A stretch of DNA of 39,710 nt from an uncultured Caryophanales bacterium (GTDB taxonomy: Bacteria; Bacillota_I; Bacilli_A; RF39; UBA660), in contig CAMKAT010000010.1 in NCBI GenBank assembly GCA_946410555.1, positions 1 through 39,710 of the forward strand. The letters run 5' to 3'. Under the pieces are notes generated by a model. That model saw only the letters and a list, made by a program, of their open reading frames with translations. It was not told the origin of the DNA and ran no database searches. Shown here one piece after another: positions 11,603-26,620 of this stretch; within the stretch, counting starts at the first letter, position 1; each line of letters starts with the position of its first letter. A program made the translations under genes and the position numbers.

Positions 11603-12379
11603 ATGAACGATAGAAAATTTTACTATTTAAGTGAAATTATTATTGGTTTAAGAGATGAATACAATAATTTAAAAAATGAATTAGATGAATTAAAGAAGAC
11701 TATGGTACTTCTTGACAATTATGATGCTACTTTTGGATTTGAACTTAGTAATCCGGAACTTAGAGTTTTAATTGTTAAATTAGAAAAGAAAGTTAAAGGA
11801 TTAGAAAATTTAATTAATATCATCAAAGTTTCTAAATCATTTGATACTGAAATTAGTTGTGATGCTATTTATAATAATCCAGAATTACAACATGCAAGTA
11901 ATTTTGTTAGAGAAACTAATTGGTTTAATTATAATGATAAATATAAAACTAGAATTTATAAAGAATGCGATAAGATTCTTCATGAAGATATCGTTTTAGG
12001 TGGTTCTTCTACTCCTATTAAAGTTGAAGATTCTAATATAGAAATAAAAATTGCTCCTAATTGTATTGATTTATATGCTAATAAGTTTAATAAGTTAGCT
12101 CCTTGTACTGGAATTGCTTATCGTGCATATGAAGATGAATTAGTAATTAATAATTATTCTAATAATCCTTCATTTGCTGCTGGTATAACTGAAATTATGC
12201 ATACTCCAATACCAAAATCTATTATTAACTCTAGAGTTACAAATATTATTGATAATAATCCTAAATCTCTTTTACCATTAAAAATCAAAGGTTTAACTAA
12301 TACTAAGGCAACTCAATATTTTAGTTTAGAAGAAAAAGAAGATAGTGTAGTTGCTACTTTAACTAGAACAAAAATGTAG
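11603..12379 (+). CDS. Uncharacterised cytosolic protein with N-terminal coiled coil
   Basis: I do not recognise it. The 258-aa product begins with a coiled coil (residues about 10-80, many Leu/Glu/Lys heptads), followed by a mixed alpha/beta region with no catalytic motif I can identify and no membrane segment. ATG 11603 is chosen because GAAAGGA (11585-11591) would be only two nt from the alternative ATG at 11594. It has its own promoter and a terminator whose stem includes the TAG stop. It lies between the tandem phosphoesterase and the tRNA-Pro/Arg genes, which says little about its role. Confidence 0.7.
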   Translation: MNDRKFYYLSEIIIGLRDEYNNLKNELDELKKTMVLLDNYDATFGFELSNPELRVLIVKLEKKVKGLENLINIIKVSKSFDTEISCDAIYNNPELQHASNFVRETNWFNYNDKYKTRIYKECDKILHEDIVLGGSSTPIKVEDSNIEIKIAPNCIDLYANKFNKLAPCTGIAYRAYEDELVINNYSNNPSFAAGITEIMHTPIPKSIINSRVTNIIDNNPKSLLPLKIKGLTNTKATQYFSLEEKEDSVVATLTRTKM

Positions 12380-12711: not shown

Positions 12712-13350
12712 ATGAAATACGTAGCTGTTAAAGGTGCAGATAAAATACTTTCTAAAAGCACATATATTGTACAAAGACCTGAGAACTTAAAGAATAACTG
12801 GAAAGAAGAATTTGGTAATAATAATCCTATCATGGTTGAACTTGGAATGGGAAGAGGAGACATGATTATTAAGATGGCTCAACAAAACCCTAAAGTTAAC
12901 TATATTGGATTAGAATTAGATGATAATCAAATAGCTACTGCTGCTAAAAGATTAATAGGAAAGAGTTTACCAAATTTAAGACTTATTCATGGAAATGCTC
13001 AAGATTTAGATAAAATGTTTGGAAGAGAAATTGATACTATTTATTTAACTTTCTCTGAACCTTGGCCAAAAAAACATGATGAACAAAAAAGATTTACTCA
13101 TTATGGTTACTTAAAACTTTATGATAAAGTTTTTAGAAAGAAAAAACATATTATATTAAAGACTGATAATAAAGGTTTATTTGCTTATTCTTTAGAAACT
13201 TTAAGTCAATATTGGTATACTTTTAAGAAAGTTTCTTTAGACTTACATCATGATGAAAGACATATACCTAATATTATGACTGACTTTGAAAAGAACTATT
13301 TTGATATTGGTAGACCTATTTATTATGTAGATGCAGAATTTGAAGGATAA
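12712..13350 (+). CDS. trmB: tRNA (guanine-N7-)-methyltransferase
   Basis: TrmB makes m7G46 in tRNA variable loops using SAM. The 212-aa product has the SAM-binding VELGMGRGD (residues about 43-51), YIGLELDDNQ for the second strand and the family signature, here SEPWPKKHDEQKRFT (usually DPWPK). The C-terminal TDFEKNYFDIGRPIYY corresponds to the TxYE.KF..G.PI.. tail. GAGGAG (12699-12704) precedes the ATG. The extended -10 ends only 19 nt before the ATG, so the leader would be about a dozen nt. It is next to tRNA genes, with a divergent promoter. Confidence 0.95.
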   Translation: MKYVAVKGADKILSKSTYIVQRPENLKNNWKEEFGNNNPIMVELGMGRGDMIIKMAQQNPKVNYIGLELDDNQIATAAKRLIGKSLPNLRLIHGNAQDLDKMFGREIDTIYLTFSEPWPKKHDEQKRFTHYGYLKLYDKVFRKKKHIILKTDNKGLFAYSLETLSQYWYTFKKVSLDLHHDERHIPNIMTDFEKNYFDIGRPIYYVDAEFEG

Positions 13351-25050: not shown

Positions 25051-25079
25051 TTGACAAGATAAATAATCACCCATATACT
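25051..25079 (+). promoter_or_regulatory. Strong promoter of the structured RNA
   Basis: TTGACA (25051-25056), 17 bp, TATACT (25074-25079): a consensus -35, optimal spacing and a near-consensus -10. Start expected near 25086, with no coding sequence after it for 400 nt. Confidence 0.85.
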
Positions 25080-25082
25080 TAA

Positions 25083-25442
25083 GGTAACTTAGTAAGATAG
25101 GGTTGATACAATTATAAGTACATTACGATGGATTGTACTGTACTTGATAGCTGTGGGCTATCATAAGGTTGAGACTATAAGTTTCCCGCGATTCGTGAAG
25201 ATCGTTTTGGTATTGACCCAACAATTTAATTGATGGTGCATGCTTATATGGACGGTGTCTGTATGAGATGTGCTGATTGGTTAGTTGTGAGTAAAGGTGA
25301 ATCGGAGAATAACACCTGCTAAGTATATGCGCGTATGGTTGAGTATACCTAAGTTATTGATTTTCTAAAAGCCTGATCAGCTATGAAAATTATTCGTTTA
25401 ATACTCCTTAAAACTTTGGGGCGTGTGTGTCCAAAGTTTTTT
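25083..25442 (+). ncRNA. Large structured non-coding RNA, family not recognised
   Basis: This gene-free stretch has its own promoter and terminator and many nested helices. Closing helix 25083-25092/25349-25358 (10 bp, two GU). Inside it: 25100-25109/25210-25219 (10 bp, two wobble pairs), which encloses hairpins 25118-25123/25134-25139, 25146-25151/25157-25162, 25171-25175/25181-25185 and 25188-25192/25201-25205. Then a long hairpin: 25221-25234 with 25276-25288, continuing 25238-25253 with 25257-25273. Then 25295-25299/25313-25317 and 25323-25327/25344-25348, the last abutting the closing helix. A further hairpin (25360-25365/25385-25390) and the terminator follow. I see no RNase P core, tmRNA ends, SRP loop or known riboswitch core. 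RNA 5' end near 25086 if the promoter is right. Confidence 0.8.
25410..25442 (+). terminator. Terminator of the structured RNA
   Basis: AAAACTTTGG (25410-25419) pairs with CCAAAGTTTT (25431-25440) around an 11-nt G/T-rich loop, then T. Confidence 0.9.
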
Positions 25443-25452
25443 GTTGGCCTTA

Positions 25453-25481
25453 TTTACAAAATATACTTAGTTATTTATAAT
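25453..25481 (+). promoter_or_regulatory. Promoter of the gene at 25499
   Basis: TTTACA (25453-25458), 17 bp, TATAAT (25476-25481); it ends 17 nt before the ATG. Confidence 0.75.
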
Positions 25482-25498
25482 TTATTATAGGTGATACT

Positions 25499-26620
25499 AT
25501 GAAGAAAAAAGGGTTGAAAAATAAAAATATTAGTATATCCACTTTATTAACTATATACATATTATTTGGAATTATTTTTATTCTTATTGTAATAGGTACG
25601 GATGTTTCAAAGTATAGAGTTGATGATTTATTTGATATAAATGCCGCTAAAGTAGATAATGAATTAAATGATTTAATTGCTACTCAAGATGCAACTATTA
25701 AAAAACTAAAAGAAGTAAGTAAAAATTCTAATTATAATTTTAATGAACCTTATGTTTTAGTTAATCCTTTTAATTTTAATCCTTGTTCTGCTATCATGGT
25801 ATTTTCTACTTCTGAAGTAACTAAAGTTACTTTAGAAATTAATGATAGAGTCGTAGGTACTTCTGAAGCAACTTCTCTTCATTTTATTCCTATTTATGGT
25901 TTAGATGAAAATAGTTACAATAGAATAGTTCTAACTCTTGAAGATGGTACTATGCATGAAGAATTTATAAAAACTGATGGAGTTTATTCTAATGTTAAAA
26001 TAGAAAAAACTAATAGAGATGCTGATTCTTTATTACTATCTTATTTTGATACAGGAACTATGACTGCTATTTACGGATATAATAATTACAATACTATTAA
26101 TTTTATGATTACTGGTTTAAATTATATTTCTACATTTAATTTAAATAATGGTTATTTAACTCTAGAATATAATAGTAAAAGAGATATAAATAAAATTCTT
26201 ATTGATGTAGATTACTTTGGTAGAATATTAAAAGTTTATAAAAAAGATAAAGATTATTCTTCTGATAATGGAGTTTTATTAAATATGTATCTTGATGGAG
26301 TTAAAGAATATGATTTTAGTTTTACTAAGAATGATGAATCATATACTGAATATACTACATTAGATTTAGATGTTGTTTTAGATAAATTAAGTAAGGCTCC
26401 TTTATACTTTAAAGATTTCTCGATTTCTTATAATGGTCCTTATGTTACATATAATATTCAAGAATCAGGATATCTAATTTTAGTAAGGAATGATGGTATG
26501 ATTCTTTCATATTATATTGATGATGCTAAAGTATTAAAGGTTAGTCCTGAATATAATTATTCTTTATATCTTTTAGTAGATAATACCTACTATAATTTAT
26601 ATACAACTTTAAACAAATAA
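25499..26620 (+). CDS. Membrane-anchored protein with an arylsulfotransferase-N-like domain but no catalytic propeller
   Basis: A 373-aa protein with one membrane helix at about residues 15-36 and the rest outside. Residues about 85-165 resemble the Ig-like N-terminal domain of AssT-type aryl-sulfate sulfotransferases: YVLVNPFNFNPCSAIMVF, TKVTLEINDRVVG and HFIPIYGLDENSYNRIVL. Full AssT proteins carry a beta-propeller with a catalytic His after this; here only about 200 residues of beta-rich sequence follow and I see no such site. It may be a binding protein derived from the family. TAGGTGAT precedes the ATG. It is a single-gene unit. Confidence 0.72.
   Translation: MKKKGLKNKNISISTLLTIYILFGIIFILIVIGTDVSKYRVDDLFDINAAKVDNELNDLIATQDATIKKLKEVSKNSNYNFNEPYVLVNPFNFNPCSAIMVFSTSEVTKVTLEINDRVVGTSEATSLHFIPIYGLDENSYNRIVLTLEDGTMHEEFIKTDGVYSNVKIEKTNRDADSLLLSYFDTGTMTAIYGYNNYNTINFMITGLNYISTFNLNNGYLTLEYNSKRDINKILIDVDYFGRILKVYKKDKDYSSDNGVLLNMYLDGVKEYDFSFTKNDESYTEYTTLDLDVVLDKLSKAPLYFKDFSISYNGPYVTYNIQESGYLILVRNDGMILSYYIDDAKVLKVSPEYNYSLYLLVDNTYYNLYTTLNK

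Follow-up and report, generated by a model that had tools for sequence, protein, structure and literature searches.

A divergent full-length member of the PGK RNA family in uncultured gut Bacilli: a candidate free-standing, self-dimerising RNA gene

Downstream of topB in DNA of an uncultured Caryophanales bacterium (39,710 nt were analysed, hereafter the window) lies a stretch of about 355 nt that raises the question of whether it is a gene in its own right and, if so, of what kind. The initial annotation had described a consensus promoter and a terminator bracketing the stretch, and both signals were confirmed in the window sequence. The promoter TTGACA-17-TATACT (25051–25079; this and all other features of the locus are on the + strand) carries 11 of 12 consensus bases, while the intrinsic terminator AAAACUUUGG...CCAAAGUUUUUU spans about 25410–25440 and has a related sequence in relatives linked to topB. 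The lack of an open reading frame also held, the longest one touching the stretch being 35 aa, as did the raised GC content (37.1% versus 27.3% for the window, with just 2.3% of 356-nt windows equally GC-rich). The minimum free energy (MFE) of the stretch is −100.7 kcal/mol (z = −3.35), and none of the shuffled sequences folds as well. Conservation and covariation in relatives, described below, further support the annotated structured and independently transcribed RNA, and on these comparative grounds the stretch encodes a real RNA of about 350 nt. The protein specified by the gene that comes after it (25499–26620) combines an N-terminal hydrophobic stretch with an Arylsulfotran_N (Ig-like) domain, and similar proteins come after the RNA in several genomes of the same genus. 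Further candidate copies in the window, at 13158 (nhmmer E 0.32, within a coding frame) and at 12122, 34119 and 35732 (covariance model R1, see below, E 1–4) were taken as chance.

The RNA had been left unassigned, and by score this remains true of the copy itself. All 4227 Rfam models were run against it without a meaningful match, and neither scanning the window at the gathering threshold nor scanning the region with E allowed up to 10 gave a useful match; PGK RNA (RF03040, gathering cut-off 50.8 bits) likewise gave no match to the window copy. Nor does the stretch supply a tmRNA, RNase P RNA or 6S RNA that the genome would otherwise lack, as these are present elsewhere (G000 carries tmRNA on C7 and RNase P RNA on C2, with a 6S match of 37 bits, below gathering, on C39). 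Where the assignment changes is in the relatives, since divergent copies at the same locus place the window RNA in the RF03040 family. A DNA search recovered copies 80% identical to the window RNA, directly after topB, in two genomes of the same genus, and a search with the topB product led to further, more distant genomes. In seven genomes (L007, L009, L011–L015) a promoter follows topB, next comes ACUUAGUA itself or a closely related sequence, and a terminator ends the stretch; six of these seven stretches give a sub-threshold match of 32–42 bits to RF03040. The terminators of the topB-linked relatives carry the loop UUUAUCAG, which pairs with H3, the second core hairpin. A search of the bacterial family with RF03040 itself returned 21 loci at up to 96 bits, 15 of them above the gathering cut-off.

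Profile and architecture point the same way. With an nhmmer profile built without window-type sequences (the window copy and its two same-genus sisters), the window was found at E 3.4e-4 and the sisters at 9e-8 and 9.5e-7. The core layout of RF03040, a helix P1 enclosing CUAAG and a hairpin and then a hairpin with a CUGAU loop, is present in the window copy and kept in the sisters, with an inner hairpin that differs in sequence. Because covariance models score the window copy at just 15–20 bits, not significant alone, its membership rests on locus, profile and architecture; judged by these, the window RNA is a divergent full-length member of the family catalogued as PGK RNA. The weak covariance scores, together with the replacement of the conserved GAGAAAG hairpin, would also fit an unrelated RNA that simply shares the position after topB, but we consider this most improbable given that the copy has in common with the family not only its position but the start ACUUAGUA, the pairing PK1 (see below), a palindromic GCGC, the CUGAU loop and a related terminator, and given the profile E-values.

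To describe the family at large, two covariance models were used, R1 built without any window sequence and R2 built from 96 matches. R1 found the RNA in 74 of 386 genomes and 32 of 150 genera of the bacterial family, and R2 in 100 of 386 genomes and 41 of 150 genera, figures that are lower limits because both models miss the window's own copy. In searches at the level of the class (395 genomes) and order (385 genomes), all matches listed fell within the same bacterial family, and the named records are, with few exceptions, assemblies from gut metagenomes that bear the labels uncultured Bacilli, Erysipelotrichaceae, Bacillales or Tenericutes. Our best reading is an RNA restricted to a single family of uncultured gut Bacilli. 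A phage origin was considered on a single IMG/VR pattern match (L229) and rejected, as R1 did not support it; a match in a lake MAG (L140) was likewise unsupported by R1.

Comparison of about 100 copies indicates that the 92-nt RF03040 entry, classed as 'cis-reg', is just the core of a free-standing RNA gene. In the core helices 92.3% of cells are paired and 21 of 22 pairs have changed on both sides, with a covariation score of 0.626 that drops to 0.195 in shuffled and to no more than 0.097 in slid controls, and a second set, which overlaps the first, gives the same picture. Fitting the core alignment to the model favours the structure, a bias from which the slid controls and the pairs lying outside the model are free, and as alignment evidence we regard the core covariation as decisive. 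The helix equivalent to P1 shows covariation at all six pairs in A5.

Several elements lie outside this core. A promoter scoring at least 9/12 precedes 91 of 94 family members. When that promoter was picked by its own score alone, 83 of 91 copies could form a helix of 6 bp or more (PK1) between the 18 nt after the −10 box and the segment that P1 encloses. Permuted partners gave 41 and shuffled partners 20, and the compensatory forms of PK1 are many (e.g. AUCUCGGU × GCCGAGAU and GUAUUUUGA × UCAAAAUAC). The domain between PK1 and P1 measures about 60–330 nt, varies between genera and folds more stably than shuffled sequence, at a mean z of −3.2 (30 copies). A helix P2 of at least 6 bp encloses H3 in 54 of 89 copies (26 when permuted), and a conserved AAACUCGG-like motif stands after P2 and before the terminator in 89 of 94 members. 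The terminator loop, finally, can pair with the loop of H3 in a kissing contact, as CUGAUAA × UUAUCAG in 54 copies and in a compensated CUGACA(A) form in four. At least six Watson–Crick pairs form in 58 of 94 members and in all 11 of a second type of copy discussed below, again with compensated forms (UUAUCAG × CUGAUAA or UUGUCAG × CUGACAA); some family members are without this contact.

The window copy can be read part by part against this plan, with pair cells counted across the three window-type sequences. The 5′ strand of PK1, ACUUAGUA, stands at the transcript start (25087–25094) and pairs with the 3′ strand UGCUAAGU (25317–25324) through seven Watson–Crick pairs and one G-U, an 8-bp helix retained in all three sequences. 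Next come two lineage-variable parts. The left domain (25100–25219) consists of a 10-bp closing helix (20/20 cells paired, 2 two-sided changes) and four hairpins, of which b and d have 26/26 cells paired, a 19/22 and c just 8/16; the second part is a long hairpin of 31 pairs (25221–25288; 59/61 cells paired, with 11 changes on one side and 3 on both). Taken as one set, the long hairpin, the closing helix of the left domain and its hairpins b and d retain 105 of 107 pair cells and show 6 two-sided changes, and these parts of the fold first proposed for the locus stand; hairpin c, with half its cells unpaired, lacks this support.

P1 (AAUAAC 25308–25313 × GUUAUU 25353–25358; 12/12 cells paired in the sisters) spans 25308–25358 and encloses the PK1 3′ strand, the palindromic element AUAU-GCGC-GUAU (25325–25336), a predicted symmetric contact of two RNA copies, and the inner hairpin GGUUGAGUAUACC (25337–25349, placed by alignment). 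The latter replaces the conserved GAGAAAGAAAACUC hairpin, whose sequence is gone in the window group, and has 5/6 cells paired in the sisters. P2 (UGAUUUUC × GAAAAUUA, 25358–25392) encloses H3, AGC-CUGAUCA-GCU (25370–25382), with 22/22 cells paired and 6 two-sided changes in the sisters, and is followed by AAUACUCC (25400–25407, placed by profile alignment), the counterpart of the AAACUCGG-like motif preceding the terminator. The terminator loop of the window copy is altered, with UUAUCAG lost; by eye, the two sisters retain a 6-bp contact GUCUGA × UCAGAC. The overall closing helix of the initial annotation, UAACUUAG × CUAAGUUA (25085–25092 × 25349–25356), is indeed the MFE choice, but comparison across the family prefers PK1. 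The 5′ strand fits both CUAAGUUA and the other CUAAGU (25317–25324), with 16/16 cells kept for each in the three window-type sequences, and predicted energy does not separate the MFE closure from P1 plus PK1; as the functional closure, the MFE helix was replaced by PK1 on the family evidence.

PGK RNA was reportedly described upstream of pgk, and its Rfam label would make the RNA a cis-regulatory leader or attenuator that controls the downstream gene through its terminator. In keeping with that label, pgk follows the RNA in genus g93, the terminator at the RNA's end takes part in the fold, and the next gene is co-directional in 73 of 90 cases. Among the loci read, however, pgk follows in g93 only, the downstream genes vary by genus, and the next gene is on the other strand in 17 of 90. 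No constant partner gene emerged: topB and pgk are among the neighbours in different genera, as are, by eye from the sequence, hup, a SpoIVA-like gene, EF-P, rplL and ffh. In the window, moreover, the next gene (start 25499) has a separate promoter of its own, TTTACA-17-TATAAT (25453–25481, 11 of 12 consensus bases), and throughout the family terminator formation belongs to the conserved fold, with no conserved anti-terminator pairing seen. Given the varied neighbours, the single genus with pgk, the opposite-strand cases and the separate promoter here, a cis-regulatory role is unlikely for most members, and as an account of the RNA we hold it to be improbable. Seven copies (L027, L030, L050, L052, L073, L035 and L125) stand, by eye, beside sporulation-like genes (SpoIVA-like, CotD-like coat protein).

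The feature that stands out most is the palindrome. In 70 of 94 copies the hairpin flanked by PK1 and the GAGAAAG hairpin has a self-complementary capping tetranucleotide, and two-sided exchanges occur at both positions; a palindrome of at least 4 bp per half is present in 62 of 94 members, versus a mean of 9 and a maximum of 18 in shuffles. AAUU is the commonest type, GAUC, ACGU, GUAC, GCGC, UAUA, AUAU and GGCC also occur, and across the family 12 of the 16 possible tetranucleotide palindromes are seen. For seven sampled palindromes the predicted self-duplex lies between −6.4 and −14.7 kcal/mol, with the isolated hairpin at 0, and for the window element the values are −14.5 and 0.0 kcal/mol. 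Neighbouring bases of a loop are unable to pair with each other inside a single chain, and a capping palindrome points to pairing between chains. In OLE RNA the same kind of switch, loop L9.3 changing from GGCC to GAUC or AGCU, has served as evidence for the homodimer (PMC12286853). We conclude from these patterns that in most copies the short self-complementary segment probably pairs two RNA copies.

The same element could instead be merely a hairpin of a monomeric RNP RNA, its loop bound by protein and its self-complementarity incidental. The palindrome is absent in some groups (members of about nine genera are without it), and conserved unpaired motifs such as the AAAGAAAA loop and AAACUCGG resemble protein sites. 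A protein site, however, would be expected to hold its sequence, whereas here self-complementarity is constant across 12 different palindromes, in loop bases unable, as was argued for OLE, to pair within one chain. We therefore see the monomeric RNP as unlikely, if clearly less so than cis-regulation, and retain pairing between copies; restriction-site palindromes at the DNA level are also judged an unlikely explanation. Because some members lack them, neither the palindrome nor the kissing contact is essential family-wide. In six copies of genera g173, g114 and g169 (L097, L100, L104, L040, L106 and L043) UGUAAC replaces the palindrome and no kissing terminator lies within reach, while PK1 and the core are kept.

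Sensitive search combined with sequence reading found a second, type-2 copy in 10 of 11 genomes of the window's genus, including the window genome. All 11 type-2 copies use CUGACA(A) × (U)UGUCAG, and their palindromes (AGCU, CUAG, UCGA and UGCA) occur in none of the type-1 copies of the genus (GAUC, GCGC, ACGU and GUAC). The type-2 copies also carry a conserved AUCCAAACA plus UACAUGA in the variable domain. The one in the window genome (L238; G000:C12:30844–30940, minus strand) scores a weak 34 bits and has a clear architecture, with the palindrome UGCA and the kissing code CUGACA × UGUCAG. In a genome-by-genome table assembled by hand, the palindromes are all different in 15 of the 21 genomes with at least two palindromic copies, although the genomes are related and independent events are thus fewer than these counts. 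The six exceptions come from two genera, g35 and g124, in which both copies are AAUU, so insulation between paralogues is not strict. Tandem copies separated by a few hundred bases, all with a promoter and terminator of their own, were seen at L082, L096 and L032 (g124) and at L243/L248 (G008:C75). We tentatively suggest, at somewhat less than even odds, that these are orthogonal self-recognising RNAs, with one to three paralogues per genome whose own palindromic and terminator-kissing codes would keep homodimers or larger assemblies unmixed.

Taken together, the comparisons favour, with a probability of roughly 0.6, a free-standing, trans-acting and self-dimerising non-coding RNA gene, the window copy being a divergent PGK RNA family member. 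What the comparisons show is a promoter and a terminator belonging to the RNA, a 5′ end paired into the core through PK1, a structured domain of variable size and, in most members, the kissing contact of the terminator loop with the core hairpin. This contact would lock the 3′ end, so that the final fold may be reached by complete transcripts only. Two copies of the same RNA would then pair through the palindromic element into a homodimer, while differences in palindrome and kissing code would usually keep the paralogues of one genome separate, both steps being suggested by covariation. The dimer might serve as a scaffold for a protein or RNP, following an OLE-like logic, though this is a guess. 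On this reading a 92-nt 'cis-regulatory' Rfam entry becomes an RNA gene standing on its own, with two long-range contacts and a strong prediction of a dimer that can be tested. Homo-oligomers are rare among natural RNAs, and OLE, ROOL and GOLLD have been solved just recently. Since the pairing code spans 12 palindromes and paralogues mostly differ, the specificity of RNA self-assembly becomes testable here by simple exchange mutants.

The closest known system is PGK RNA itself: its 92-nt RF03040 model describes the core found here (P1 plus the GAGAAAG and CUGAUAA hairpins), and other family members match that model at up to 96 bits, but the model is without the 5′ strand, PK1, the palindrome, P2, the large variable domain, the terminator and the kissing contact. 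The initial annotation had been reminded of ornate bacterial RNAs, and by Rfam the RNA is not OLE, ROOL or raiA, while an OLE-like palindromic self-pairing element upholds part of that resemblance. ROOL and GOLLD, which form kissing loops between copies, and raiA, which is monomeric, are likewise ornate non-coding RNAs, with no Rfam match to the present RNA and a different size and layout. OLE is a free-standing structured RNA of Bacillota. The family described here differs from it in having no sequence or Rfam match and no constant partner gene, in its smaller size and in its single candidate contact, which is predicted from sequence. At the OLE homodimer contact a palindromic tetranucleotide switches between palindromes (PMC12286853), and in the present family, too, the tetranucleotide switches while staying palindromic.
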